From Cystobacter fuscus (GTDB lineage Bacteria > Myxococcota > Myxococcia > Myxococcales > Myxococcaceae), in assembly GCF_002305875.1 (NCBI RefSeq), contig NZ_CP022098.1, forward strand, positions 1,674,001 through 1,738,000: a stretch of 64,000 nt of DNA. The letters run 5' to 3'. Shown in pieces: positions 19,778 to 52,281 of this stretch. Position 1 is the stretch's first letter, and every line of letters begins with the position of its first letter. A model generated the notes under the pieces. That model saw nothing but the letters and a program-made list of their open reading frames with translations. It did not search any database and had not been told where the DNA came from. The position numbers were made by a program, and so were the translations under genes.

Positions 19778-21289
19778 ATGGCGATGGAACTCAAGCAGAG
19801 CCTGAAGCTTTCGCAGCAGCTGGTGATGACGCCCCAGCTGCAGCAGGCCATCAAGCTGCTGCAACTCTCGCGCATGGAGCTGTTGGAGCAGGTCCGGGAA
19901 GAGATGGATCAGAACCCGCTCCTGGAGCAGCCAGACGAGGCGCCCTTCGGTGACTTGACGGACAAGGAGCCGGGCGAGGCCTCCATGGAGGCGGCGAATA
20001 CCGAGATTCCCCGGGATCTGGAGCCCCGCACCCCGGACACGGCGACGGAGTTCAAGGCCGACAAGGACGGCCCGCCGGAGATCGACTGGGAGGCGTACCT
20101 CAACAGCTACCAGTTCAACGAGCCGACCACGGCGTCCAACAAGGGCAACGTGGCCACGGACGACATGCCCTCCTTCGAAGCCAACATGGTGGAGAAGGAG
20201 GATCTGGTCGACCACCTGCAGGAGCAACTGGGCACGCTGCGGCTCAACGACGCCGAGCGCCGCATCGGCATGCTCATCCTCGGCAACCTGGACCACGACG
20301 GCTACCTCAAGCTGGAGGAGGTGGAGGGAGACCCCCTCATCCGTCTGGCCAACGAGGCGGACGTGCCCATGAGCGTGGCCGAGCGCACCCTGCGCCGCAT
20401 CCAGAACCTGGAGCCCAAGGGCTGCGCCGCGCGCGACTTGCAGGAGTGCCTGCTCATCCAGGTGGCCGCGCTCAAGGACAAGCACGCTCCGCTGCTCGGC
20501 CTCATCATCAAGCGCCACATGAAGTACCTGGAGAGCAAGAACCTCCCGGCGATCGCCAAGGATCTCAAGGTGTCGCTCGAGGAGGTGGTGGAGGCCTCCA
20601 AGCTCCTGCCGCGCCTGGACCCGAAGCCGGGCCGCAACTTCAGCGGCGACGACGCGCAGTTCATCACCCCGGACGTGTTCGTCTACAAGATGGAGGACGA
20701 CTACACGGTGGTGCTCAACGACGACGGCCTGTCCAAGCTGCGCATCTCCGGCATGTACCGCAACGCGCTCAAGGCGGGCGGGGTGGGCCCCGGGCAGACC
20801 AAGGAGTTCATCCAGGAGAAGCTGCGCAGCGCCCAGTGGCTCATCCGCTCCATCCACCAGCGCCAGCGCACCATCTACAAGGTCACCGAGAGCATCGTGA
20901 AGTTCCAGCGCGAGTTCCTCGACCAGGGCATCGCGCACCTCAAGCCGCTCATCCTGCGCGACGTGGCCGAGGACATCGGCATGCACGAGTCCACCGTGTC
21001 GCGCGTGACGACGAACAAGTACGTGCACACGCCCCAGGGCATCTTCGAGCTGAAGTACTTCTTCAACTCGTCCATCGCCCGCGTGTCCGGAGACGACACC
21101 GCGAGCGAGGCCGTCAAGCACCACATCAAGCAGCTCGTCAGCCAGGAAGATCCGCGCAACCCCTACTCGGATCAGAAGATCGTCGAGCTGCTCAAGGCCC
21201 AGGGCACGGAGATCGCCCGGCGCACCGTGGCCAAGTACCGCGAGGTGCTCAACATCCTCCCGAGCAGCAAGCGCAAGCGCTACTTCTAG
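19778..21289 (+). CDS. rpoN: RNA polymerase sigma-54 factor
   Basis: This 503-residue protein begins MAMELKQSLKLSQQLVMTPQ LQQAIKLLQL, the region I glutamine-rich helix that contacts enhancer-binding proteins and the -12 DNA. An acidic region II follows (about residues 60-110), then the core-binding domain. Near the C-terminus a helix-turn-helix reads ESTVSRVTTNKYVHTPQGIF, and the RpoN box is ARRTVAKYRE. Sigma-54 recognises -24/-12 promoters and needs AAA+ activators such as the NtrC-type protein at 45672. It is the expected sigma factor for the small-RNA array at 47.3-48.7 kb. The start at 19778 has GGGAGA upstream. Confidence 0.97.
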   Translation: MAMELKQSLKLSQQLVMTPQLQQAIKLLQLSRMELLEQVREEMDQNPLLEQPDEAPFGDLTDKEPGEASMEAANTEIPRDLEPRTPDTATEFKADKDGPPEIDWEAYLNSYQFNEPTTASNKGNVATDDMPSFEANMVEKEDLVDHLQEQLGTLRLNDAERRIGMLILGNLDHDGYLKLEEVEGDPLIRLANEADVPMSVAERTLRRIQNLEPKGCAARDLQECLLIQVAALKDKHAPLLGLIIKRHMKYLESKNLPAIAKDLKVSLEEVVEASKLLPRLDPKPGRNFSGDDAQFITPDVFVYKMEDDYTVVLNDDGLSKLRISGMYRNALKAGGVGPGQTKEFIQEKLRSAQWLIRSIHQRQRTIYKVTESIVKFQREFLDQGIAHLKPLILRDVAEDIGMHESTVSRVTTNKYVHTPQGIFELKYFFNSSIARVSGDDTASEAVKHHIKQLVSQEDPRNPYSDQKIVELLKAQGTEIARRTVAKYREVLNILPSSKRKRYF

Positions 21290-41263: not shown

Positions 41264-43180
41264 ATGATCATCGGCACCGCGGGGCACATCGATCACGGCA
41301 AGACGTCCCTGGTCAAGGCGCTTACCGGAATCGACACGGATCGGCTGAAGGAGGAGAAGCGCCGGGGCATCACCCTGGAGCTGGGCTTCGCGCACCTCGC
41401 GCTGGGCGAGGGGCAGGTGGCGGGCGTGGTGGACGTGCCCGGCCACGAGCGCTTCGTGAAGGCGATGGCGGCGGGGGCCGGCGGGGTGGACCTGGCGGTG
41501 CTGGTGGTGGCGGCGGACGAGGGGGTGATGCCCCAGACGCGCGAGCACCTGGACATCTGCCGGCTGCTGGGCGTGAAGGCCGGAGTGGTGGCGCTCACCA
41601 AGGCGGATCTGCTTCCGGGGCTGGGCGCGGAGTGGCGCGCGCTGGTGGACGCGGACGTGGCCACGCTGGTGGCGGGCACCTTCCTCGAGGGCCGTCCCGT
41701 GGTGCCCGTCTCGTCGCGCACGGGCGAGGGGCTCGAGGCGCTGCGGGCCGCGCTCGTCGAGGTCTCCAGGGACGTGCCCGCGCGCGGCGTGGACGGCCCC
41801 GCCTTCCTGCCGGTGGACCGGGCCTTCAGCTTGAAGGGCTTTGGCACGGTGGTGACGGGCACGCTCTTGTCGGGGGCCTTCGCGGCGGAGGACTCCGCTT
41901 CCCTGCTGCCGGGCCTCGCCGGACCCTGGCGTGTGCGCGGAGTGCAGCGGCATGGCGAGGGGGTGCCGCGGGTGGTGGCCGGGCAGCGCGCGGCGGTGAA
42001 CCTCGTGGGCGTGGAGGCCGAGGCCGTCGCGCGGGGCGCGGTGTTGGTGCACGCGGGCGAGGTGTCCGAGACGTCCATGTTGGACGTGGAGCTGAGCCTG
42101 TTGGCCGCGGCGCCCGAGGCGCTGCCCCGGCGCCGCAAGCTCCTCCTTCACCTGGGCACGGCGCAGGCGGAGGCCACGGTGGCGCTGTTGGACCTGGAGC
42201 GGTTGGAGCCGGGCGAGACGGGGCTCGCGCAGCTACGGCTGGCGACGCCCGTGGCGGCGCTGCCCGGCCAGCGCTTCATCCTCCGGGGTCCGCGCGCGCT
42301 GCCGGGCCGGGGTGCCACGCTGGCCGGGGGGCGGGTGTTGTCCATCTCGCCTCCGCGCCGGCGCAGGGGCGGGGCCGGGGTGGTGGCGCCCCTGCTGGAG
42401 GCGGACCCGGGCACCCAGGTGGCGTGGCTCTTGAGACAGGCGGGCTACCGGGGCCTCACCTGGAAGGAACTCTTCGCCCGCTCCGCCCTGGCGTCCCGGG
42501 TGTTGTCGCGGGCGCTGGAGACGCTCGGCGCGCGGGGCGCGGCGCTACTGGTGGACAAGGAGCGGCGGCTCTACCTTTCGGGCGAGGTGTTCGAGGGGAT
42601 GCGGGCGCGGGCCCTGGCGCTGCTCGACGCCTTCCACGAGCGCGAGCCCTTGCGCGAGGGGCTGTCGAGGGAGGAGCTGCGCCAGCGCCTGTCGGGCGAG
42701 CTCGAGGCCCGGGTGTTCTCCCGGCTGGTGCAGACGTTGGTGGAGGCGGGCAAGGTGGAGGTGGAGCGCGAGACGGTGAGGCGGGTGGGGCGGGGCCGCA
42801 CGTTGTCCCTGGATGAGGACGCGGCGCGCACGCGGCTGGTGGCGGACCTGGGGGCGGCGGGGCTCGCTCCGCCCACGCTCCACGAGCTGGCCGAGCGGCT
42901 GCGCCTGCCCGTGCCCCGGGTGAGGGAGCTGCTGCGGGTGGCGGTGGCGGAGGGCCGGGCGGTGGGGGTGAGCGAGGAACTCTACTTCGACGCGGGCGCG
43001 CTGGCTGGCCTCAAGGAGAGGCTCGTTGCCTACCTGCGCGACAAGAGCGACATTTCCACCCAGGCGTTCAAGGAGTTGGTGGGGCAGAGCCGGAAGTTCG
43101 TCATTCCCCTCTCGGAGTACTTCGATCGCGAGAAGGTCACGCTTCGTGTCGGAGAGAAACGGGTGCTGCGGCGCGCATGA
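41264..43180 (+). CDS. selB: Selenocysteine-specific elongation factor
   Basis: This 638-residue protein is SelB. It starts [20 protein letters not shown] (P-loop), has [29 protein letters not shown] (the PGH switch, with conserved GHE) and NKAD-type [10 protein letters not shown]. Beta-barrel domains follow to about residue 360. Four winged helices (about 380-638, ending [15 protein letters not shown]) bind the SECIS hairpin. It delivers Sec-tRNA to UGA. No selA, selD or Sec-tRNA gene is present in the window. Its stop codon overlaps the kinase gene by 4 nt, linking selenoprotein translation with the pxrK-like kinase in one transcript. Confidence 0.94.
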
Positions 43181-45675
43181 CGAGGAATCTCTACAACGAG
43201 GCGACCCTGCGCAGCCTCATCGACCACTTCACCAATCCCATCTCCGTGGTCCAGGATGGTCGGATCCGGATGGCCAACGACGCCTACCTGGCGATGCACG
43301 GGTTGTCGCGCGAGCAGGTCGAGGGCCGCTCCTTCTTCGACTTCCTCCACCCGGAGGACCTGGCGAGGCTGCGCACGCGCTACCGCCTGCGGGAGCAGGG
43401 GATGCTGGCGGAGAGCGATCCCCGGCGCTACGTGCTCCCGTCGCGTCCGGGCGTGGGGCCGCGGGAGCTGGCGGTGCACGTGCAGGAGGTGGAGCTGGAG
43501 GGCAGTGGCTTCGCGCTGCTGTGCAACCACCTGGTGCTGGGCGATCGTCCGAGCGAGCTGGAGATGGCCGAGCGCCTGGTGGAGACGTCCGCGAAGCTCG
43601 TCGCGGCGCGCTCCGAGGAGGCGGTGCGGCGCATCGCCCTGGAGGGCTTCCAGGGGGTGGGGCTCGTCGCGCGCTTCCTGGCGCGGGACGGGGAGCGCTT
43701 CAGCCCCTTCGAGGGTTTCGAGGAGGCGCTGGCCTGGCGGGCCCTGACCGAGGGACGCCCCGTCTTCGGCCACTTCGAGAACGAGTCCACGGCCGTCTAC
43801 CTCGCGCTGGGCACCACGTCGTCGGAGATGCTGTGGGTGGCGGGCCCGGAGGTGCGGCCCTCGTACGGTCCGGTGCTGGAGCTCTTCGCCAAGGTGGTGG
43901 GGGCGGCGCTCACCGACGCGCGGCTGTTGGCGGACGTGGAGCGCAGCCGCTGGGAGCTGTCGTCCGTGGCCGAGGTGGCGCGCTTCGTCGCGCTGCCCGA
44001 GCCTCCCTCGCCCGAGGACTTCCTCGCGCGGCTGTCGCTGCTGGTGGGCGCGGAGGCCGTGGTGTTGTACGGGTCGGACTCGCCGGAGGGGCCTCCTGGG
44101 CTCGTGGCGCAGGTGGGTCTGGAGCCGGCCCAGGTGGAGGCACTCCCGATGCCGCGGGAGGAGTGGCTGTCGGCGGAGCTGTCGGCTCGGGGCGTGGTGC
44201 TCTCCAGCGAAGCGGAGGAGCGCGAGTGGAGCGCGCTGTCCGCGGGCCGTCTGGTCCGGAGCGCGGCGGTGCCGTTGTTGCTGGGAGGTCAGCCCGGGGG
44301 GCTCTTGCAGGTGCTGCGCGGCGCGGACCCTCCCTTCAGCGCGGAGGAGCTGCGGCTGCTGGGCACGCTGGCCGAGCTGTTGATGATGTTGCTGGAGCAG
44401 CGCCGGCTGCGGGCCGAGTCCGCGCGCCAGCTCACCGACTCGCGCCTGCTGTTGGATCTGGCGCGCACCACCGCCACCACGTTGGAGGTGGCGAGCATCC
44501 TGGACGTGGCCTCGGACTTCCTCGTCAAGCTGCTGGATGTCTCCAACTGCTTCATCCTCCTGCATGACGAGCAGGCGGGGGTGCTGCGGGGCGCCGCGGC
44601 CTCCGTCACCCATCGCGACTTCTTCCGGGGTCTGGTGGTGCCGGTGGATGACCCCGAGAGCCTCGCGGCGCGCGTGGCGCGCGAGCGCCGGTCCATCTCC
44701 GTACCGGACCTGTCGAAGGCCGGGTCCATCGGGCGGCGCTCGCTCGTGCAGCAGCTCGAGCAGAAGGCGATGCTGGCGCTGCCACTCACCTCGCGCGAGC
44801 AGCTCATCGGCGTGGTGTTGCTGGACGACATCCGCCGGCCCCGGATCTTCCCCACGGCGTTCATCGAACTGGCCGAGGCCACGTGCGGGCAGATCGCCCT
44901 GGCCATCACCAACGCGCGTCTGTACGAGTCTCTGTGGGCGTCCTACGCGGAGCTGGCCGCCGCGCGCGCGGAGATGGTCAAGCGCGAGCGCCTGGCGGCC
45001 CTGGGCGAGCTGTCGGCCATCGTGGCCCACGAGGTGCGCAATCCCCTGGGTGCCATCTTCAACGCCGTGGCCTCGTTGCGCCACCTGCTCAAGCCGGATG
45101 GCGACACGGCCATGCTCCTGGACATCCTCGCCGAGGAGAGTGACCGGTTGGACCGGATGGTGAGCGACCTGCTCGACTACACGCGGCCGCGCGAGCCCAT
45201 CCGCCAGCTCGAGGACGTGGCGCGCATGCTGCAGGACGCGGTGGAGGCGGCGTGGAAGCAGCAGGGCAGCCCGAGCCACATCACGCCCACCATCGAGGTG
45301 GAGCCGCAGTTGCCCCGGGTGCCGTTGGATCGGCGCCACATCCGCCAGGTGCTCATCAACATGCTGGTCAACGCCATGCAGGCGATGCCCCAGGGCGGCG
45401 GGGTGCGGGTGCTCGCCCGCCGCGAGCTGCATGAGGACCGGGAGCTCTTGCGCATCGACGTGGTGGACCAGGGGAGCGGCATTCCCACCGAGCTCATCCA
45501 CCGCGTCTTCGAGCCCTTCTTCACCACCAAGGCCCAGGGCACCGGCCTGGGGCTCGCGGTGGTCAAACGCATCATCGAGGAGCACCACGGGGAACTCTCC
45601 CTGGAGAGCACTCCGGGCCGTGGCACCACCTTCTCCATCCGTCTCCCCCTCAACCAGCCGACGAGTCCGCCGTGA
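43177..45675 (+). CDS. pxrK: PAS/GAF histidine kinase, PxrK-like
   Basis: This 832-residue cytoplasmic kinase has an N-terminal PAS domain (about 15-105, SLIDHFTNPISVVQDGRIRM). Two GAF-like regions follow (about 265-400 and 430-590, the second starting LLDLARTTATTLEVASILDV). The HisKA domain carries the phospho-acceptor histidine in IVAHEVRNPLGAIFNAVASL, and the HATPase has INMLVNAMQAMPQGGG, DQGSGIPTELIH and GTGLGLAVVKRI. Overlaps of 4 nt at both ends couple it to selB and to the response regulator. In Myxococcus xanthus, PxrK and PxrR are reported regulators of the Pxr sRNA; the order kinase, NtrC-type regulator, sRNA is preserved here, which is why I use the name. Confidence 0.85.
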   Translation: MTRNLYNEATLRSLIDHFTNPISVVQDGRIRMANDAYLAMHGLSREQVEGRSFFDFLHPEDLARLRTRYRLREQGMLAESDPRRYVLPSRPGVGPRELAVHVQEVELEGSGFALLCNHLVLGDRPSELEMAERLVETSAKLVAARSEEAVRRIALEGFQGVGLVARFLARDGERFSPFEGFEEALAWRALTEGRPVFGHFENESTAVYLALGTTSSEMLWVAGPEVRPSYGPVLELFAKVVGAALTDARLLADVERSRWELSSVAEVARFVALPEPPSPEDFLARLSLLVGAEAVVLYGSDSPEGPPGLVAQVGLEPAQVEALPMPREEWLSAELSARGVVLSSEAEEREWSALSAGRLVRSAAVPLLLGGQPGGLLQVLRGADPPFSAEELRLLGTLAELLMMLLEQRRLRAESARQLTDSRLLLDLARTTATTLEVASILDVASDFLVKLLDVSNCFILLHDEQAGVLRGAAASVTHRDFFRGLVVPVDDPESLAARVARERRSISVPDLSKAGSIGRRSLVQQLEQKAMLALPLTSREQLIGVVLLDDIRRPRIFPTAFIELAEATCGQIALAITNARLYESLWASYAELAAARAEMVKRERLAALGELSAIVAHEVRNPLGAIFNAVASLRHLLKPDGDTAMLLDILAEESDRLDRMVSDLLDYTRPREPIRQLEDVARMLQDAVEAAWKQQGSPSHITPTIEVEPQLPRVPLDRRHIRQVLINMLVNAMQAMPQGGGVRVLARRELHEDRELLRIDVVDQGSGIPTELIHRVFEPFFTTKAQGTGLGLAVVKRIIEEHHGELSLESTPGRGTTFSIRLPLNQPTSPP

Positions 45676-47105
45676 CAGACCCATCGACGACTACTCTTCC
45701 TCGTGGCCGCATCCTGGTGGTGGATGACCAGCGCAACATGCGCGCCACCACCGCGCTGCTCCTGCGCTCCGAGGGCTACTTCGTGCTCGAGGCCGCCACG
45801 GGCGAGGAGGCGCTGCAGATCCTGTCGGGCGGCCGCGTGGAGCTGATGCTGACCGACCTCAAGATGGAGCCCATGGATGGGCTCACCCTGCTCAAGAAGG
45901 CGCTGGAGGTGTCGCCGCGCCTGCAGGTCATCATGATGACGGCGTTTGGCTCCATCGAGAGCGCCGTGGAGGCCATGCGCCAGGGGGCGTTCGACTACGT
46001 CACCAAGCCCTTCAAGGAAGGGGAGCTGCGCTACCGGGTGGAGCGGGCGCAGGAGCGGGCGCGGTTGCAGGCCACGGTGGACATGCTGGCGGGCGAGTTC
46101 AACGAGCGTCACGGCTTGAGCGCGCTGGTGGGCCGCAGTCCGGCGATGCTCGAGCTGACGTCGCGGCTGATGCGCGTGGCGCAGAGTGACGCCACGGTGC
46201 TGGTGCAGGGCGAGAGCGGCACGGGCAAGGAGCTCGTCGCGCGCGCGGTGCACGCGCACAGCCGGCGCAAGGCCCTGCCCTTCGTGCCCGTCAACTGCGC
46301 CGCCATTTCCGAGTCGCTGCTCGAGAGCGAGCTGTTCGGCCACGCCAAGGGCGCCTTCACGGGTGCGGTGCGGGCCCGCCGGGGTCTGGTGGAGGAGGCG
46401 GACGGGGGCACGCTCTTCATCGACGAGGTGACGGAGACGACGCCCGCCTTCCAGTCCAAGCTGCTGCGCACGTTGCAGGACGGCGAGGTGCGGCGCGTGG
46501 GCGAGTCCACCGCGGTGAAGGTGGACGTGCGCATCGTCGCCGCCACCAACCGGGACATCGAGCTGGAGGTGCAGGAGAAGCGCTTCCGGCAGGATCTCTA
46601 CTACCGGCTCAACGTGGTGACCCTGCGAGTGCCCCCGCTGCGCGAGCGACTGGAGGACGTGCCCGCGCTGGCCGAGCACTTCCTCAAGCGCGCCAATGCG
46701 CGCAGCCCCAACCCCAAGCGCCTGTCGGCGGCGGCGGTGGAGCACCTGATGGGCCACAACTTCCCGGGCAACGTCCGGGAGCTGGAGAACCTGGTGGAGC
46801 AGGCGGCGGCGCTGTCCGAGGGCGAGGAGCTGCTCCCGGAGGACTTTCCCCTGCGTCCGCACACCCGGGTGGGGGGGACGCCGGATGCGCCGCCCGCGCC
46901 GCTCACCACGGACCTCAGCTCCCGCGTGCCCACGCTGGCAGAAGCGGTGGAGGAGGCCGAGCGGCGGGCGATCGCCCAGGCCTTGGAGCGCTACGCGATG
47001 GACCTGGGCCGCGTGGCCGAGGAACTGGCCGTCTCCTCCACCACGCTGTGGCGGAAGATGAAGCGCCTCAACCTCCGTCCACCTGGGGGAGAACATCGGG
47101 AGTGA
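45672..47105 (+). CDS. pxrR: NtrC-type sigma-54 response regulator, PxrR-like
   Basis: The 477-residue product (GTG start at 45672) has a receiver domain with acceptor region MLTDLKMEPMDG and the Lys in VTKPFK (about 8-125). An AAA+ domain follows (Walker A GESGTGKELVARAVHAHSRR, the sigma-54-contacting GAFTGA, and DGGTLFIDEV). Last is a Fis-type helix-turn-helix (about 435-465, LGRVAEELAVSSTTLWRKMK). It overlaps the kinase gene by 4 nt. Its 3' end lies 200 bp from the first of five sRNA units, each with sigma-54 promoters and dyads. It is the obvious candidate for the enhancer-binding protein that drives them, in line with PxrR in M. xanthus. Confidence 0.9.
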   Translation: MTDPSTTTLPRGRILVVDDQRNMRATTALLLRSEGYFVLEAATGEEALQILSGGRVELMLTDLKMEPMDGLTLLKKALEVSPRLQVIMMTAFGSIESAVEAMRQGAFDYVTKPFKEGELRYRVERAQERARLQATVDMLAGEFNERHGLSALVGRSPAMLELTSRLMRVAQSDATVLVQGESGTGKELVARAVHAHSRRKALPFVPVNCAAISESLLESELFGHAKGAFTGAVRARRGLVEEADGGTLFIDEVTETTPAFQSKLLRTLQDGEVRRVGESTAVKVDVRIVAATNRDIELEVQEKRFRQDLYYRLNVVTLRVPPLRERLEDVPALAEHFLKRANARSPNPKRLSAAAVEHLMGHNFPGNVRELENLVEQAAALSEGEELLPEDFPLRPHTRVGGTPDAPPAPLTTDLSSRVPTLAEAVEEAERRAIAQALERYAMDLGRVAEELAVSSTTLWRKMKRLNLRPPGGEHRE

Positions 47106-47124: not shown

Positions 47125-47138
47125 GTTCAATGATGAAA
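47125..47138. promoter_or_regulatory. Possible third, upstream half-matching regulator site
   Basis: GTTCA-ATGA-TGAAA matches the TTKCA-N4-TGMAA dyad consensus in all but the first base. It lies 42 bp (about four helical turns) upstream of the first conserved dyad of unit 1. It could be an additional enhancer site for the PxrR-like protein. Confidence 0.4.
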
Positions 47139-47165
47139 ACTGGAACCCCCCGGGATGACAGCGGA

Positions 47166-47202
47166 TTTGCAGCGCTGAAAACGCATTGCAGCCCTGCAAT
47201 GC
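47166..47202 (+). promoter_or_regulatory. Paired enhancer dyads of sRNA unit 1
   Basis: Two dyads lie at 47167-47180 (TTGCA-GCGC-TGAAA) and 47186-47199 (TTGCA-GCCC-TGCAA, inside a perfect 20-bp palindrome at 47183-47202). Their centres are 19 bp apart, the same spacing as in units 2-5. The second centre is 85.5 bp upstream of the -24 GG, ten bases closer than in the other units, which keeps the helical phase. Confidence 0.75.
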
Positions 47203-47276
47203 CGGAAGGTGTCCCTTGGAGAGGGGAGTGCCGCTCAAGTCCTTGAAATGACGGGGCTTTGAGGCGCCGGGAGAGC

Positions 47277-47292
47277 TGGCATGCAGCGTGCT
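47277..47292 (+). promoter_or_regulatory. Sigma-54 promoter of sRNA unit 1
   Basis: TGGCATG-CAGC-GTGCT keeps the essential GG and GC 12 bases apart. The -24 is TGGCAT instead of TGGCAC. Transcription should begin near 47303. Confidence 0.75.
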
Positions 47293-47302
47293 AAAGGTTG
47301 GA

Positions 47303-47427
47303 GTCAGAATGCGCTGATGTGGCGCTGAAGAGGTTCCCCCCCACCGCTTCAGTGTCTCCGGTGTGTTTTCTTTAGAAGAACCCGCGGCCCGGTCCCCTCT
47401 TCGAGGGGTCCGGGCCGCCTTCTTTTT
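47303..47427 (+). ncRNA. pxr: Pxr-like sRNA unit 1 (divergent copy)
   Basis: The predicted transcript of about 125 nt runs from the sigma-54 start to the terminator T-run. Its core is a hairpin, CTGAAG-A-GGT / ACC-G-CTTCAG, with an apical loop TCCCCCCC (47335-47342, seven C). The reported M. xanthus Pxr has a seven-cytosine run in a stem-loop, and an altered C there changes developmental control. A 3' terminator hairpin follows. The transcript shares only the core and the terminator framework with units 2-5, so this is probably the ancestral or a functionally separate paralogue next to the regulator gene. Confidence 0.85.
47386..47427 (+). terminator. Terminator of sRNA unit 1
   Basis: GGCCCGG-T-CCCCTC pairs with GAGGGG-T-CCGGGCC (a single T-T mismatch) with a 3-nt loop, followed by GCCTTCTTTTT. 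The stem arms differ from those of units 2-5, showing independent sequence with conserved pairing. Confidence 0.9.
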
Positions 47428-47480
47428 GGGCCTCGGGCGCTGATCCAACTCCGCCTCCCGGGAAGGAAGGGCTGGGGGTT

Positions 47481-47514
47481 TTTCACATGTGAAAGGCGAT
47501 TGCAGGGTTGCAAT
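47481..47514 (+). promoter_or_regulatory. Paired enhancer dyads of sRNA unit 2
   Basis: TTTCA-CATG-TGAAA (47481-47494) and TTGCA-GGGT-TGCAA (47500-47513) have centres 19 bp apart. The second centre is 95.5 bp upstream of the -24 GG. Both fit the shared TTKCA-N4-TGMAA consensus. Confidence 0.75.
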
Positions 47515-47600
47515 GCAGAGCTGAAAGCGGCCCGGCTCCCGCGTCTCTCGCCCAGGAGCCAAGTCACTGGAATCCTTGGAGTTCTGGTGGAGGAGAGGAG

Positions 47601-47616
47601 TGGCACGGGGAGTGCT
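47601..47616 (+). promoter_or_regulatory. Sigma-54 promoter of sRNA unit 2
   Basis: TGGCACG-GGGA-GTGCT has an exact -24 element and correct 12-base GG-GC spacing, with a G for T at the first -12 base. The predicted start is near 47627. Confidence 0.8.
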
Positions 47617-47626
47617 AAAGCATGGA

Positions 47627-47751
47627 GACGGAGCACGTCGGAGCTGGTCGAAGGAGGTTCCCCCCCACCGCCTTCAGCCCTCCAGATGGCTTCCTGAGAA
47701 GAACCCGCGGCCCGGTAGCCCTTTCTGAGGGCTCCGGGCCGTCTTCTTTTT
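47627..47751 (+). ncRNA. pxr: Pxr-like sRNA unit 2
   Basis: This is a predicted transcript of 125 nt, the same length as in unit 1. It contains a 5' stem (GACG/CGTC near the start) and the central hairpin GAAGG-A-GGT / ACC-G-CCTTC with loop TCCCCCCC (seven C at 47660-47666). A 13-bp terminator stem at 47709-47740 ends it. Compared with unit 1, the hairpin pairs GG/CC where unit 1 has G/C, and the mismatch A-G is preserved, so structure is conserved though sequence varies. Units 2-5 are identical from the promoter to the terminator. Confidence 0.85.
47709..47751 (+). terminator. Terminator of sRNA unit 2
   Basis: GGCCCGG-T-AGCCCT pairs with AGGGCTCCGGGCC (13 bp, one bulged T) with a 5-nt loop, then GTCTTCTTTTT. 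Confidence 0.92.
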
Positions 47752-47805
47752 GCGCCTCGAGAGCCAGCCGGCACCCCACCTCCCGGGAGGAAAGGGCTGG
47801 GGGCT

Positions 47806-47839
47806 TTTCACATGTGAAAGGTGATTGCAGGGTTGCAAT
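47806..47839 (+). promoter_or_regulatory. Paired enhancer dyads of sRNA unit 3
   Basis: The two dyads (TTTCA-CATG-TGAAA and TTGCA-GGGT-TGCAA) are at 47806-47819 and 47825-47838, with the same 19-bp spacing and the same distance to the promoter as in unit 2. The flanking bases differ slightly. Confidence 0.75.
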
Positions 47840-47925
47840 GCAGAGCTGAAAGCGGCCCGGCCCCTGCGTCTCCCTCTCGGAAGCCAAACCCTCGGAATCC
47901 CTGGGCTTTCCATGGCGGGGAAGGG

Positions 47926-47941
47926 TGGCACGGGGAGTGCT
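47926..47941 (+). promoter_or_regulatory. Sigma-54 promoter of sRNA unit 3
   Basis: TGGCACG-GGGA-GTGCT is identical to unit 2, 325 bp downstream. The DNA between the dyads and this promoter differs from that of unit 2 at many positions. Confidence 0.8.
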
Positions 47942-47951
47942 AAAGCATGGA

Positions 47952-48076
47952 GACGGAGCACGTCGGAGCTGGTCGAAGGAGGTTCCCCCCCACCGCCTTC
48001 AGCCCTCCAGATGGCTTCCTGAGAAGAACCCGCGGCCCGGTAGCCCTTTCTGAGGGCTCCGGGCCGTCTTCTTTTT
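47952..48076 (+). ncRNA. pxr: Pxr-like sRNA unit 3
   Basis: The predicted transcript is identical to unit 2 over its whole length. It lies 325 bp downstream of unit 2 and has its own promoter and terminator, so it would be expressed independently. Its upstream spacer (47851-47925) differs from that of unit 2, while promoter, enhancers and transcript are the same. Confidence 0.85.
48034..48076 (+). terminator. Terminator of sRNA unit 3
   Basis: The same 13-bp bulged stem and T-run as in unit 2. Confidence 0.92.
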
Positions 48077-48130
48077 GCGCCTCGAGAGCCAGGCGGCACC
48101 CCGCCTCCCGGGAAGGAAGGGCTGGGGGTT

Positions 48131-48164
48131 TTTCACATGTGAAAGGCGATTGCAGGGTTGCAAT
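48131..48164 (+). promoter_or_regulatory. Paired enhancer dyads of sRNA unit 4
   Basis: Dyads at 48131-48144 and 48150-48163 are identical to those of unit 2. Confidence 0.75.
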
Positions 48165-48250
48165 GCAGAGCTGAAAGCGGCCCGGCTCCCGCGTCTCTCG
48201 CCCAGGAGCCAAGTCACTGGAATCCTTGGAGTTCTGGTGGAGGAGAGGAG

Positions 48251-48266
48251 TGGCACGGGGAGTGCT
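48251..48266 (+). promoter_or_regulatory. Sigma-54 promoter of sRNA unit 4
   Basis: Identical to unit 2, including the spacer upstream. Confidence 0.8.
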
Positions 48267-48276
48267 AAAGCATGGA

Positions 48277-48401
48277 GACGGAGCACGTCGGAGCTGGTCG
48301 AAGGAGGTTCCCCCCCACCGCCTTCAGCCCTCCAGATGGCTTCCTGAGAAGAACCCGCGGCCCGGTAGCCCTTTCTGAGGGCTCCGGGCCGTCTTCTTTT
48401 T
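48277..48401 (+). ncRNA. pxr: Pxr-like sRNA unit 4
   Basis: Identical in transcript and promoter region to unit 2. As an independent promoter-terminator cassette it adds gene dosage to the array. Confidence 0.85.
48359..48401 (+). terminator. Terminator of sRNA unit 4
   Basis: The same 13-bp bulged stem and T-run as in unit 2. Confidence 0.92.
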
Positions 48402-48455
48402 GCGCCTCGAGAGCCAGCCGGCACCCCACCTCCCGGGAGGAAAGGGCTGGGGGCT

Positions 48456-48489
48456 TTTCACATGTGAAAGGTGATTGCAGGGTTGCAAT
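48456..48489 (+). promoter_or_regulatory. Paired enhancer dyads of sRNA unit 5
   Basis: Dyads at 48456-48469 and 48475-48488 are identical to those of unit 3. Confidence 0.75.
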
Positions 48490-48575
48490 GCAGAGCTGAA
48501 AGCGGCCCGGCCCCTGCGTCTCCCTCTCGGAAGCCAAACCCTCGGAATCCCTGGGCTTTCCATGGCGGGGAAGGG

Positions 48576-48591
48576 TGGCACGGGGAGTGCT
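48576..48591 (+). promoter_or_regulatory. Sigma-54 promoter of sRNA unit 5
   Basis: Identical to unit 3. Confidence 0.8.
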
Positions 48592-48601
48592 AAAGCATGG
48601 A

Positions 48602-48726
48602 GACGGAGCACGTCGGAGCTGGTCGAAGGAGGTTCCCCCCCACCGCCTTCAGCCCTCCAGATGGCTTCCTGAGAAGAACCCGCGGCCCGGTAGCCCTTTC
48701 TGAGGGCTCCGGGCCGTCTTCTTTTT
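48602..48726 (+). ncRNA. pxr: Pxr-like sRNA unit 5
   Basis: The last unit of the array, with a transcript identical to units 2-4. After its terminator the repeat pattern stops abruptly at 48727 and ordinary intergenic DNA follows. Confidence 0.85.
48684..48726 (+). terminator. Terminator of sRNA unit 5
   Basis: The same 13-bp bulged stem and T-run as in unit 2. It closes the array. Confidence 0.92.
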
Positions 48727-49025: not shown

Positions 49026-50585
49026 TCAGCGATTGAGCAGGCTGCCGGCCTGGGCGATCCACTCGGTGAGGGGCCCGGGCAGGATGCCCAGCAGCACCAC
49101 GGCCGCGGTGGAGATGATGAGCGCCAGCTCCGTCATCCAGGCCCGCTCCAGCGGGTGGGCGCCTTCGGGAACCGGGCGCATGTACATGTAGACGACCACG
49201 CGCAGGTAGTAATAGGCGCCAGCCGCGCTGGAGAGCACCGCGACGATGGTGAGCCCGACGAGGCCCACGTCCACCGCGGCGCGGAAGAGCAGGAGCTTGC
49301 CGATGAAGCCGACGGTGGGAGGAATGCCGGCGAGCGACAGCATGAAGGCGGCCATGGCGAAGGCCCAACCCGGCCGGCGCTGGGCCAGTCCGCTCAGGCG
49401 CTCCAGGTCCCACGCGGTGCCCCGCTCCTCGTCCTCGCGGCGCTCCAGGAGGGAGACGATGCCGAAGGCCCCGATCGCGGTGACGGCGTAGGCGAGCAGG
49501 TAGAAGAGGATGCCGCGCAGGGCCTCGACGCGTGCGGTGGCCTCGACACTGGCGCCGGTGAGCGACGTGGGCCCGAGCAGCTGGAACTGCTGGCCGGGCT
49601 GCACGACGAAGAGGGCGGCCACGCCCAGCATCAGATAGCCGGCGTGGGCGATGGAGGAGTAGGCCAGCATGCGCTTGATGTTGCGCTGCGGGATGGCGAG
49701 CAGGTTGCCGCCCACCATGGTGAGCAACGCCAGGGTGGAGAACAGGGCGAAGGGCAGCTTGCCGTTGATGCCGCTGCCCACGGTGACGAACACGCGCACG
49801 AGCGCCACGAAGGCGGCGGCCTTCACGCCCGCGCTCATGAGCGCGGTGACGGGAGTGGGAGCGCCCTCGTAGACGTCCGGCGTCCACATGTGGAAGGGCA
49901 CCGCGGCCACCTTGAAGGCGAAGCCCGCGGCCACCAGCACCGCGCCCGCGTAGACGAGCGCCGCGTGGGTCTCCATCGCATCGCGCAGCGGCTGCGCCAT
50001 GTGCGACAGCAGCGTGGTGCCCGTGGCGCCGTACAAGAGCGCCGCGCCGTAGAGCAGCACCGCCGAGGAGAAGGCGCCGAGGATGAAGTACTTGAAGCCC
50101 GCCTCGCTCGGCCGCGTGCCACGTCGCAGGAAGCTCGTGAGCGCGTACGTGGAGATGGACAGCACCTCGATGTTGATGAAGACGGTGATGAGCTCGTTGG
50201 ACACACCCAACAGGCTCATGCCCGCGCCCGCGAAGAGCATCAGCGCGTAGAACTCACCGCGCTCGGCGCCCCGGCGCCGCAGGAAGCCCGCCGAGGTGAG
50301 CGTGGCCAGCGCCAGCGACACGCAGACGATGAAGGTCAGGAAGCTGGAGAAGGGATCCAACGCGCCGAAGCCGAGGAACACCTCGCGCGCGGGCTCGAAC
50401 AAGAGCTGCAGCGACACGCCGCCGGCGATGACGGCGGTGAGGCTGGCCAGCACCGCCTGGTAGCCGCGGGTGGAGCTCGCGGAGAGGAACACCTCCGAGA
50501 GCAGCAGGATGCACGCGCCCAGCACCAGGATGAACGCGGGAATCAGGGGGAGGAAGTCTGCCGAGGTGAGGGTGGGCAGGTTCAT
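49026..50585 (-). CDS. nuoN: NADH-quinone oxidoreductase subunit N
   Basis: This 519-residue antiporter-like membrane subunit of complex I starts MNLPTLTSADFLPLIPAFIL. The conserved core includes NIEVLSISTYALTSFLR, GFKYFILGAFSSAVLLYGAA, and FKVAAVPFHMWTPDVYEGAP with the lysine/proline discontinuous helix. It belongs to the proton-pumping arm. It is the last gene of the minus-strand operon, 16 bp after nuoM. ATG 50585 was chosen over an upstream frame because family N-termini match it. Confidence 0.96.
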   Translation of the reverse strand: MNLPTLTSADFLPLIPAFILVLGACILLLSEVFLSASSTRGYQAVLASLTAVIAGGVSLQLLFEPAREVFLGFGALDPFSSFLTFIVCVSLALATLTSAGFLRRRGAERGEFYALMLFAGAGMSLLGVSNELITVFINIEVLSISTYALTSFLRRGTRPSEAGFKYFILGAFSSAVLLYGAALLYGATGTTLLSHMAQPLRDAMETHAALVYAGAVLVAAGFAFKVAAVPFHMWTPDVYEGAPTPVTALMSAGVKAAAFVALVRVFVTVGSGINGKLPFALFSTLALLTMVGGNLLAIPQRNIKRMLAYSSIAHAGYLMLGVAALFVVQPGQQFQLLGPTSLTGASVEATARVEALRGILFYLLAYAVTAIGAFGIVSLLERREDEERGTAWDLERLSGLAQRRPGWAFAMAAFMLSLAGIPPTVGFIGKLLLFRAAVDVGLVGLTIVAVLSSAAGAYYYLRVVVYMYMRPVPEGAHPLERAWMTELALIISTAAVVLLGILPGPLTEWIAQAGSLLNR

Positions 50586-50601
50586 GATGGAAGGCTTTCG
50601 G

Positions 50602-52281
50602 CTAACGCCGGTCGGCGAGCGGACCCGCCGGCTGGGCATGAGGGGCGGCGGCCTCGCCGGAGGAGGGCAGGCCCATCACGTTGATGCGCACGTCGGCGGG
50701 CTGGATCTGGCTGCCGGGCGCGCCCAGGCTGGCGCGGCTGACGAAGCGCTCGGTGGCGGGGTTGATGCGATCGAGGAAGGGCTGGGGCTTGAGGCCCATG
50801 ACGACCACGAGCACCACGAAGGGCAGCACCGTGACGAGCTCGCGCGCGTTGAGGTCCGTCAGGTTCTGATTGTCGCGGTGGGTGAGGGGCCCGAAGAAGA
50901 CCTTCTGCACCATCCACAGCATGTACGCCGCGCCCAGGATGACACCCAGCGTGGCGAAGACGCCGAAGCCCAGGCCCAGGTTGCTCTTGAAGGTCCCCAG
51001 CAGCACGAGGAACTCGCCCACGAAGCTGTTGGTGCCCGGCACCGCCACGGACGAGAACGTCATGATGAGGAAGGCCGCCGTGTACACCGGCACCACCTTG
51101 GCGATGCCGCCGTAGTCGGACATCAGGCGCGTCTGCCGCCGCTCGTGGAGCAGGCCGAACAGGAGGAAGAGCGCGCCGGTGGCCACACCGTGGTTGAGCA
51201 TCTGGTAGGCGCTTCCACTGGCACCCTCGCTGGTGAGCGCCACGAGGCCCAGCATGCAGTAGCCCAGGTGGCTCACCGACGAGTAGGCGATGAGCTTCTT
51301 GATGTCGCGCTGCGCCAGGCACATGAGCGCGCCGTAGACGATGCCCACCACCGCGAGCGCCGCCAGCACGGGCCGCACCTGGTGCATCGCCGCGGAGAAG
51401 AAGGGGATGGCGTAGCGCCAGAAGCCATAGACGCCGATCTTCGCCATGACGGCGGACAGGAGGACGGTGCCCCCGGTGGGCGCCTGCACGTAGGCATCCG
51501 GCAGCCAGGTGTGCAGCGGCCACATGGGCACCTTGATGGCGAACGCCAGCGCGAAGGCCGCGAACATCCAGGGGCCCCAGCGGTACAGCGCGCCCGCCAT
51601 GCCGGTGAGCCGCCCACAGTCCTCGCCGCACGTGGCGAGCTGCCGGTTGGCCTCCGCCAGGCTGTTGTAGATCGCGGCGTAGTCGAAGGAGCGGGTGCCG
51701 GCCGTGCCGCTGATGAAGTACAGGGCGACGATGGCCACCAGCATGAGCAGCGAGCCCGCCAGCGTGTAGAGGAAGAACTTCACCGCCGCCGCCTGGCGAT
51801 CCTCGCCTCCCCACACCCCCACCAGCAGGTACATGGGGATGAGCATGGCCTCCCAGAAGACGTAGAAGAGCAGCACGTCCAGCGACACCAGCGCGCCCAT
51901 CATCGCCACCTGCAGGAGCAGCAGGGCGATGTGGAACTCCTTCACGCGCTCGGTGATGGCCGTGCGTGACGCCAGCACCACCAGGGGCCCGATGAACACG
52001 GTGAGCAGCACGAGGCTGATGGACAGGCCATCCACGCCGACGTGGTAGCTCACGCCCAGTTGCTCCAGCCACCGCACGCGGTGCTCGAGCTGGAACTCGG
52101 GACCGGCGGGCTCGAAGCGCAGGTAGGCCCAGACGCCGAGCGCCAGGTCCACCAGCATGCCGATGAGCGTGACCGCGCGCACCTGTCCGCGCTCGCCCGC
52201 GGGCAGCAGGCACAGGAGCGCCACGAAGAGCAGCGGCAGGTAGACGACGATGTTGAGCAGATGGGTGTCGAAGAGGCTCAC
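50602..52281 (-). CDS. nuoM: NADH-quinone oxidoreductase subunit M
   Basis: This 559-residue membrane subunit starts at GTG 52281, which overlaps the nuoL stop by 4 nt. Clear signatures are FYVFWEAMLIPMYLLVGVWG, FAIKVPMWPLHTWLPDAYV with the antiporter lysine, and CMLGLVALTSEG. It is part of the ion-translocating arm of complex I. The early part is shorter than in E. coli, but this is common in Deltaproteobacteria. Confidence 0.96.
   Translation of the reverse strand: MSLFDTHLLNIVVYLPLLFVALLCLLPAGERGQVRAVTLIGMLVDLALGVWAYLRFEPAGPEFQLEHRVRWLEQLGVSYHVGVDGLSISLVLLTVFIGPLVVLASRTAITERVKEFHIALLLLQVAMMGALVSLDVLLFYVFWEAMLIPMYLLVGVWGGEDRQAAAVKFFLYTLAGSLLMLVAIVALYFISGTAGTRSFDYAAIYNSLAEANRQLATCGEDCGRLTGMAGALYRWGPWMFAAFALAFAIKVPMWPLHTWLPDAYVQAPTGGTVLLSAVMAKIGVYGFWRYAIPFFSAAMHQVRPVLAALAVVGIVYGALMCLAQRDIKKLIAYSSVSHLGYCMLGLVALTSEGASGSAYQMLNHGVATGALFLLFGLLHERRQTRLMSDYGGIAKVVPVYTAAFLIMTFSSVAVPGTNSFVGEFLVLLGTFKSNLGLGFGVFATLGVILGAAYMLWMVQKVFFGPLTHRDNQNLTDLNARELVTVLPFVVLVVVMGLKPQPFLDRINPATERFVSRASLGAPGSQIQPADVRINVMGLPSSGEAAAPHAQPAGPLADRR

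Follow-up and report, generated by a model that had tools for sequence, protein, structure and literature searches.

The small RNA (sRNA) Pxr of Myxococcus xanthus, family RF01812 of Rfam, blocks the development of fruiting bodies in rich medium and occurs in a long (Pxr-L) and a short (Pxr-S) form. It is described in the available parts of two reports as three stem-loops (SL1 to SL3) encoded by a gene of 108 nucleotides (nt) (PMC5568312; PMC5684412). As far as the accessible text on this species goes, the response regulator PxrR is essential for Pxr synthesis and a longer form of the RNA is trimmed by RNase D (PMC10217877), mutation of the loop abolishes Pxr function, and the limit that pxr sets on spores depends on gene dosage, one copy being compared with two (PMC11928866). 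Here we analyze a window of 64,000 nt from the genome of Cystobacter fuscus, a fruiting soil bacterium (contig NZ_CP022098.1, positions 1,674,001 to 1,738,000), in which five pxr units lie in tandem at window positions 47125-48726, directly behind pxrK-pxrR and spaced 324-325 nt apart. The explanation that we consider very probable as a whole is a PxrR-driven pxr array of separately promoted units with additive output from five copies and a two-hairpin RNA, descended from a one-hairpin form.

On sequence grounds the array RNAs are assigned to the known sRNA Pxr, with units 2 to 5 below the Rfam cut-off. RF01812 matches all five units: unit 1 at 47317-47426 with 80.7 bits, above the gathering score of 80, and units 2 to 5 with 60.5 bits each (E 2e-9), below it, from 47641, 47966, 48291, and 48616 (+109 in each case). 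Within the window no other Rfam family reaches its cut-off, and the rest of the C. fuscus genome holds no additional RF01812 match better than E 3.4. A covariance model built here to include the 5' leader (R1; 23 training rows, units 1 and 2 among them) gives unit 1 a score of 117.4 bits and units 2 to 5 96.9 bits each, unit 2 being part of the training set. The predicted folding energies are -68.6 kcal/mol for unit 1 (z -8.3) and -68.7 for unit 2 (z -5.1). The C-rich loop of SL1, GGTTCCCCCCCACC, is present in 5/5 units, and CCCCCCAC is invariant across 81 distinct pxr copies. SL1 and SL3 of the published structure are present, and SL2 would be taken up by a further helix, P1, if the RNA starts at the inferred +1. 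Beyond the RNA itself, the PxrR match that adjoins pxr in a genome of the genus Myxococcus (G062; labels of the type G062, L046, and g6 are our own handles) is 81% identical to the PxrR of the window. The features of the locus, in window coordinates, are as follows.

43177 to 45675, plus strand: pxrK (spdS), sensor kinase of 832 amino acids with PAS-GAF-HisKA-HATPase domains (Pfam)
45672 to 47105, plus strand: pxrR (spdR, nla19), NtrC-type response regulator of 477 amino acids with receiver, sigma-54 activator, and Fis-type helix-turn-helix domains (Pfam)
47125 to 47199: unit 1 enhancer, sites at 47125 (one mismatch), 47167 and 47186 (perfect) (motif scan)
47277 to 47292, plus strand: unit 1 sigma-54 promoter TGGCATGCAGCGTGCT, GG-N10-GC
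47303 to 47427, plus strand: Pxr RNA of unit 1 from the inferred +1 through the terminator, with the C7 loop inside 47332-47345 (RF01812, R1, fold)
47481 to 47526: unit 2 enhancer, sites at 47481 and 47500 (perfect) and 47513 (one mismatch) (motif scan)
47601 to 47616, plus strand: unit 2 sigma-54 promoter TGGCACGGGGAGTGCT, GG-N10-GC
47627 to 47751, plus strand: unit 2 Pxr RNA, loop within 47656-47669 (RF01812, R1, fold)
47630 to 47643, predicted to pair with 47680 to 47693: leader strand and partner strand of unit 2 helix P1 (fold)
47806 to 47851: unit 3 enhancer, sites at 47806, 47825, and 47838 (motif scan)
47926 to 47941, plus strand: unit 3 sigma-54 promoter, GG-N10-GC
47952 to 48076, plus strand: unit 3 Pxr RNA, same RNA as unit 2
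48131 to 48176: unit 4 enhancer, sites at 48131, 48150, and 48163 (motif scan)
48251 to 48266, plus strand: unit 4 sigma-54 promoter, GG-N10-GC
48277 to 48401, plus strand: unit 4 Pxr RNA, same RNA as unit 2
48456 to 48501: unit 5 enhancer, sites at 48456, 48475, and 48488 (motif scan)
48576 to 48591, plus strand: unit 5 sigma-54 promoter, GG-N10-GC
48602 to 48726, plus strand: unit 5 Pxr RNA, same RNA as unit 2
47451 to 48076: first copy of an exact 626-nt repeat (units 2 and 3)
48101 to 48726: second copy of the exact 626-nt repeat (units 4 and 5)
49026 to 50639, minus strand: open reading frame that we take to be nuoN, convergent, about 300 nt past the array end; served as the NuoN query

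A preliminary description of this stretch had proposed five self-contained sigma-54-dependent sRNA genes of an expanded pxr family, and both halves of that proposal are borne out: every unit has an RF01812 and an R1 match, its own GG-N10-GC promoter at the regular spacing, and a terminator hairpin with a T run. The starts predicted there (47303, 47627, 47952, 48277, and 48602) are where the promoter positions put +1, the seven-cytosine loop recurs in all units, and the pxrK-pxrR-pxr order agrees with the PxrK and PxrR domains found directly upstream. Other points need amending. The Rfam search that had been named beforehand as a check carried unit 1 over the cut-off and left units 2 to 5 under it; the two enhancer dyads per unit are real but belong to three sites of one motif; the promoter and RNA of the four supposedly identical cassettes are indeed identical, although the 325-nt units alternate A-B-A-B; and the array, given as starting at 47277, begins upstream at 47125. 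Four things had been overlooked: the more complete structure of the RNA, one of the three enhancer sites in each unit, the alternation of A and B units, and the existence of a wider family. That Cystobacter pxr paralogues were already known is correct: the accessible text of PMC5568312 gives three tandem copies for two strains and reports an NADH dehydrogenase gene downstream of Cystobacter pxr copies.

The array contains 10 open reading frames of at least 80 amino acids, several of which repeat one another, and the four that were scanned have no Pfam match. The genome has a single sigma-54 (PF04552) match, at window positions 20804-21280, 26 kb upstream of the array; in G062 a PF04552 match lies about 19 kb from pxr.

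The 5' end of the transcript adds a structural element to the described RNA. The inferred +1 lies 10-15 nt before the start of the Rfam Pxr match, and the first ~14 nt of the transcript, outside Rfam Pxr, are predicted to pair with the stretch called SL2, giving two long hairpins; folding from the inferred +1 yields two hairpins in nearly all copies among those listed. An alignment-free swap test, in which leaders are combined with partners from other genera, gives a mean of -15.7 kcal/mol for a copy's own leader/SL2 duplex versus -11.5 with other-genus partners. With one row per genus (23 genera), 0/20,000 partner permutations reach the observed mean, and by copy 49/53 do better than the mean of other-genus partners while 4 do not. 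In an alignment fitted to the structure, and hence biased in its favor (93 copies, 87 distinct), P1 is paired in 90.2% of cells and the whole structure in 92.6%, versus 35-54% in slid controls; all ten P1 pairs show changes on both sides, one of the ten being unpaired in 38/83 rows. RNAalifold on a plain MAFFT alignment (A2) did not find P1, the leaders being one column out of register between groups in that alignment, and a global-pair alignment does recover it. The C-rich loop of unit 2 is predicted to be unpaired with or without the leader. We infer from these comparisons that, in the primary RNA, the leader would close onto SL2 as helix P1 around SL1. The accessible text of PMC5568312, PMC5684412, and PMC10217877 gives no mapped Pxr 5' end.

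A fuller structure of this kind offers a lead on a published observation. When paired with the M. xanthus leader, the M. xanthus partner has a duplex energy of -11.5, partners of the Archangium unit-2 type -10.9 and -10.2, the unit-1 type -8.7, and later units -7.6, -7.4, and -6.1, with some native pairings weaker still (-6.3 to -6.8). This order agrees with the published paralogue outcome, the sequences compared coming from other strains than the published ones. It is conceivable that a broken chimeric P1 lies behind the failures of paralogues Cb.1 and Cb.3, whose constructs carried the M. xanthus upstream region.

Tandem pxr genes are a shared property of a small set of genera. At E ≤ 0.001, RF01812 finds Pxr in 93 of 96 Myxococcaceae genomes surveyed, two of which also gave a false extra match. 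The four genomes of the window genus have 5, 4, 2, and 5 true copies and five Archangium genomes (g3) have 4, 5, 4, 5, and 4; the fragmented A. violaceum Cb vi76 (Archangium) has two and, where a contig ends, part of a third, so that at least two copies are present in all 10 genomes of the two genera. Four copies on three contigs were found in G080, and two copies in four g4 genomes, G046, and G051. A single copy is present in all 27 g19 genomes (Myxococcus and relatives), in 16 of g6, and in 7 of g7. R1 extends the matches to 95/96 genomes by adding G045 and, in G008, a fragment at the start of a contig; the remaining genome, G093, is 85% complete and has no R1 match. RF01812 also picked up apparent second loci at G034:1410810 (38.4 bits) and G014:C46 (35.6 bits), which lack both C loop and promoter and were excluded from the counts. 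Weak R1 matches in G071, G038, G055, G069, and G094 were inspected and rejected as Pxr, and pattern matches in Geobacteraceae, Microbulbifer, Polyangiaceae, Chloroflexi (two), and Nocardioides are considered chance, as all six loci lack an R1 match at E ≤ 0.01. A record titled Comamonas sp. KCTC 72670 (BNCN01000002.1, L107) bears pxr and equals a contig of G066 (g19, Myxococcus genus) in length, and the label looks wrong.

The neighborhood is largely kept across the family. At 45 of 58 loci, pxrR precedes pxr by 143-379 nt on the same strand, and at three pxr is inverted relative to pxrR; ten loci have no pxrR, comprising five copies on separate contigs or contig ends and the genomes G081, G082, and G084-G086. 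NuoN matches were found at 37/58 loci and PxrK matches at 26/58, many loci being too short to hold them. The inverted copies, in drafts G013, G009, and G088 (L054, L058, and L075), still have a promoter and boxes. G084-G086 (L071-L073) are genomes of only 2.1-2.7 Mb that keep pxr beside nuoN; they have no PxrR orthologue or nearby boxes, and sigma-54 is present in two of the three drafts.

Each unit carries three sites of the motif TTKCA-N4-TGMAA, two perfect and one with one mismatch, at about -153/-111/-92 from the -24 GG in unit 1 and at -121/-102/-89 in units 2 to 5. The array holds every perfect site (10) and every site with one mismatch or none (15) of the 64-kb window; from 20 sequences generated by a first-order Markov model with matching dinucleotide content, 0 and 0.9 such sites would be expected, respectively. 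As the motif was derived from the array itself, this count is partly circular, and other genomes provide the independent test. In 59 loci, 159 perfect sites lie in the 23.9 kb directly upstream of pxr versus 7 in 315.8 kb elsewhere, and those 7 are also near pxr: two by position in a truncated second unit, one further upstream, and four downstream, in g6. The latter are extra perfect sites in single-copy genomes, 54-97 nt past the end of the Pxr match (L084 2351, L085 2773, L086 2863, and L097 2114).

A PxrR orthologue, one per genome, was found in 130 of 195 Myxococcota genomes (E ≤ 1e-140, at least 508 bits, 54-100% identity), the next-best regulator reaching at most 385 bits in ten genomes searched more deeply. 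In PxrR-bearing genomes, a site no more than one mismatch away from the motif lies in the 260 nt upstream of 87 of 88 pxr copies, the exception being cut by a contig end. In the genomes without a PxrR orthologue, several of which are incomplete drafts, 0/6 copies have such a site within about 260-300 nt upstream (G081, G082, G084-G086, and G045, with one site further out in G086), and G045, G081, and G082 have no recognizable -24/-12 promoter at pxr. As the presence of the site tracks the presence of PxrR, TTKCA-N4-TGMAA is probably the PxrR binding site.

The differences between units retain a record of how the array may have grown. The 626-nt repeat recurs exactly at a shift of 650, so that unit 2 equals unit 4 and unit 3 equals unit 5, which indicates that units 2 and 3 were copied to give units 4 and 5. 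Units 2 and 3 themselves differ at 29/325 positions: 2/48 in the enhancer block, 23/75 in the spacer (the 75-nt stretch between enhancers and promoter), 0/26 in the promoter, and 0/125 in the RNA, the remaining differences lying further upstream or past the terminator. Summed over 11 within-array unit pairs from eight array genomes, which are not independent of one another, 53/528 enhancer positions (10%), 211/825 spacer positions (26%), 24/286 promoter positions (8%), and 119/1378 RNA positions (9%) differ. Since the spacer differs more than the functional parts, the units look kept by selection rather than merely homogenized.

A tree was built from 51 rows, each a promoter plus its RNA. It joins the later units of the window genus, Archangium, and G080 (31 in total, all of them) in a single cluster, which has modest support (87/66; present in 85% of bootstrap trees) and excludes every unit-1 row (11) as well as nine single-copy rows. 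Unit 1 of G080 lies nearest to this cluster, and inside it the units mostly sort by species. This grouping points, with that modest support, to one old duplication that would predate the Cystobacter/Archangium split, followed by separate tandem expansions. The genome G006 of the genus Archangium (L046) shows a like A-B-A-B layout (unit 2 equal to 4 and 3 to 5 in RNA) with an origin separate from that of C. fuscus on the tree. An assembly artefact is unlikely, because the genome is a single contig of 12,349,744 bp, equal in length to the DSM 52655 assembly, which according to the available text was built from PacBio plus Illumina reads (PMC5658505), and because G002, G006, and G007, each likewise a single contig, also have arrays of four to five copies.

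Outside Myxococcaceae, a compact Pxr-like form can be recognized. It combines PxrR boxes and a -24/-12 promoter with a single long hairpin, which has a C-rich loop of 6-10 C and runs straight into a T tract, so that its base helix would double as terminator. In the genomes assigned to Anaeromyxobacter sp. Fw109-5 (G113) and A. dehalogenans 2CP-C (G109; hairpin at 489316-489403) it is flanked by pxrR and nuoN, and a PxrK-like kinase gene lies upstream; it also occurs in five families beyond that of Anaeromyxobacter, one of them in another class. A covariance model trained on nine compact RNAs only (R2) matches 58 of 147 class genomes at E ≤ 1e-3, 32 of them Myxococcaceae, and all 32 of these matches overlap known pxr. 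Over 195 phylum genomes at E ≤ 1e-5 it adds one, G188, of another class, beside a 61% identical PxrR. Of 35 compact matches, 34 were examined (nine being training rows): a promoter is present in 32/34, a perfect box in 24/34, a box with at most one mismatch in 31/34, and at least six C in a row in 34/34; promoter and boxes lie outside the R2 model. The box is absent at two of three G136 copies. In 16 genomes the compact copy lies 174-257 nt behind pxrR on the same strand, in G111 1.7 kb behind, and in ten elsewhere in the genome.

Among genomes outside Myxococcaceae, 27 of the 43 with PxrR have a compact match and 16 do not, and none was found in genomes without PxrR; at E ≤ 1e-5 the counts are 23/43 versus 0/56 (Fisher p 5e-11, shared ancestry ignored). 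The stretches downstream of pxrR in 26 genomes mostly held nothing, and in G115, G126, G127, G143, and G144 boxes and a promoter were seen there, in four with a C run behind. Compact copies can also be multiple: G136 has three in a row, G139 a pair sharing one contig plus one elsewhere, and G138 four spread over three contigs. Some of these genes (L221-L226) are close together and some far from pxrR.

It could be argued that these hairpins share no origin with Pxr and acquired a C-rich loop by convergence. The first matches with R1 scored about 37 bits, worthless by score alone and no better than inspected false matches (40.2, 39.2, 37.3, 36.9, and 36.8); the seven compact loci have no match to RF01812 or any other Rfam family even at E ≤ 1; RF01812 at E ≤ 0.001 matches none of the 49 genomes of the order outside Myxococcaceae; and R2 has no match in 64/96 Myxococcaceae genomes, C. 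fuscus included. Convergence would nevertheless have to account for a model trained on compact RNAs finding pxr whenever it matches within Myxococcaceae, for the 16 genes placed so regularly behind pxrR, for promoters and PxrR boxes that the model does not contain, and for nuoN following in Anaeromyxobacter, and we judge it rather improbable. Reciprocal covariance-model homology, synteny, and a shared box and promoter were thus found, the R2-to-Myxococcaceae direction in 32/96 genomes only. For this last reason, and as RF01812 leaves them unmatched, the compact RNAs are called Pxr-like relatives here and not RF01812 members.

Taken together, the following history appears more probable than not, if less firmly so than the account of the array itself. 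Within an old Myxococcota family of C-loop sRNAs driven by PxrR, Pxr would be the branch belonging to Myxococcaceae; the ancestor of that family would have been a single hairpin with a base doubling as terminator and probably a role in growth or stress. Myxococcaceae would have added a separate terminator hairpin, freeing the base helix for opening or cutting (a long-to-short switch), and the RNA would then have been drawn into fruiting-body control, with repeated amplification in the two-hairpin form in Cystobacter and Archangium and in the compact form in G136, G138, and G139. As simpler forms occur in relatives not known to fruit, Pxr probably did not originate as a developmental switch. 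The available text on A. dehalogenans 2CP-C notes a genome without devRS and fruCD and no experimental evidence for sporulation (PMC2330069). A 2021 review (PMC8538405) and a 2025 paper (PMC11928866), as far as their text is accessible, place the origin of Pxr within Cystobacterineae. In a full-text literature search for Pxr and Anaeromyxobacter, which left most subscription papers outside its reach, only that review was found. Going by the sequences compared, the compact form is compatible with an origin inside the order Myxococcales but would move it below the fruiting lineages; G188 would push it deeper, if it is a true homologue.

When these results are placed into physiological context, a simple scheme can be proposed. 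PxrK would phosphorylate PxrR, which would bind the three sites before each copy and drive sigma-54 transcription of five RNAs at once. The primary RNA would form two long hairpins, with leader and SL2 closing around SL1 and its C-rich loop and with SL3 as terminator; the loop would pair with G-rich mRNA stretches and hold back development while nutrients last. Copy number would raise total output additively, mostly as one RNA type (units 2 to 5) beside the divergent unit 1, and five copies may place a tighter block on development in C. fuscus. The array would stem from the old duplication and later expansions described above, and the whole module from a one-hairpin form still present in Anaeromyxobacter and other Myxococcota.

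Several observations weigh against this scheme. The +1 is inferred from promoter spacing, and additive output is borrowed from another sRNA, LhrC. Kinase adjacency is seen in 26/58 loci only, many of the loci ending inside or before the kinase. Both G004 unit pairs reverse the spacer pattern (7/75 in the spacer versus 9/48 and 7/48 in the enhancer). The 300 nt between the array and nuoN leave no room for pxrA, a proposed M. xanthus target that was not searched for elsewhere. According to the accessible text of PMC5568312, two of four tested Cystobacter paralogues failed to block M. xanthus development and accumulated poorly, so not every array copy need be active. Finally, a target search by loop complementarity yielded nothing. 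The loop complement GGTGGGGGGGAACC, with at most one mismatch, gave 20 matches versus 3 for a reversed-pattern control in C. fuscus (G000), 13 versus 10 in G034, and 9 versus 3 in G062. Perfect matches in C. fuscus are the five pxr copies and one site at 6197717, with 14 further sites having one mismatch; 2 of these 15 further sites were inspected, 6197717 and a near match 2 kb on (L265 3718 and 5705), and both lie inside two paralogous coding genes and are probably chance.

A dosage device, the term used in the preliminary description, is a plausible reading, to be set against other uses of five copies. Unit 1 and units 2 to 5 differ in RNA and enhancer layout and could divide labor between targets or timing: unit 1 keeps a layout common in the single-copy pxr of close genera while units 2 to 5 share another, the split is common to Cystobacter and Archangium, and the paralogues from two Cystobacter strains are not equally active when tested in M. 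xanthus (PMC5568312, in its available text). As all five units have the same C-rich loop, which is likely to do the pairing, and as four copies with identical RNA fit dosage better, such a division is possible but is not the account we favor. That the array is a by-product of recombination, with copies gained and lost by unequal exchange without benefit, would suit the recent duplication implied by the 626-nt repeat, the copy number of 2-5 within the genus, and the like layout in G006; it fits poorly with at least two copies being kept in all 10 genomes of both genera and with enhancers, promoters, and RNA changing in sum less than the spacer, and we consider it unlikely. With 15 sites in 1.4 kb, the repeated enhancers might also act as a sponge that limits free PxrR, letting the array tune its own activator, and promoter titration was raised by M. 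xanthus authors for an extra pxr promoter (PMC5684412, in its accessible part). Every group of sites, however, comes with its own intact promoter, RNA, and terminator, which makes a sponge very unlikely. An additive, PxrR-driven array thus remains our preferred explanation.

Pxr acts as a gatekeeper in a bacterial model system for multicellularity, where its targets are so far candidates. The relatives in Anaeromyxobacter, the probable binding site of PxrR, and the more complete structure with its covariation make the origin of Pxr, the relation of Pxr-L to Pxr-S, and shared old targets testable, and the five-copy array constitutes a natural dosage experiment.

The C. fuscus array shares with M. 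xanthus Pxr the sequence and structure family, the C-rich SL1 loop, the sigma-54 promoter, and the upstream pxrK-pxrR, and it differs in having five copies instead of one and in the lack of space for pxrA beside it. The Rfam model contains no 5' leader helix, whereas the full transcript proposed here does. Beyond Pxr, the LhrC genes of Listeria monocytogenes combine a tandem layout with two-component control, and the Qrr genes of Vibrio harveyi are under sigma-54/LuxO control and are dispersed, not tandem. Qrr1-5 resemble the array as five related sRNAs in one circuit, and LhrC1-5, per the accessible text of PMC6794450, as five sRNA copies with a C-rich pairing motif that appear additive; both RNAs are unrelated to Pxr. 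Tandem pxr is also on record for Cystobacter minor Cbm6 and C. violaceus Cbvi34, for which the available text of PMC5568312 likewise places the genes between pxrR and an NADH dehydrogenase gene, with three divergent copies as against five here, four of them with identical RNAs, in a complete genome. The C. fuscus array is therefore a larger case of something already known, to which the leader-SL2 pairing, the site that tracks PxrR, and the compact Pxr-like RNA unseen by Rfam are three extensions that look new.

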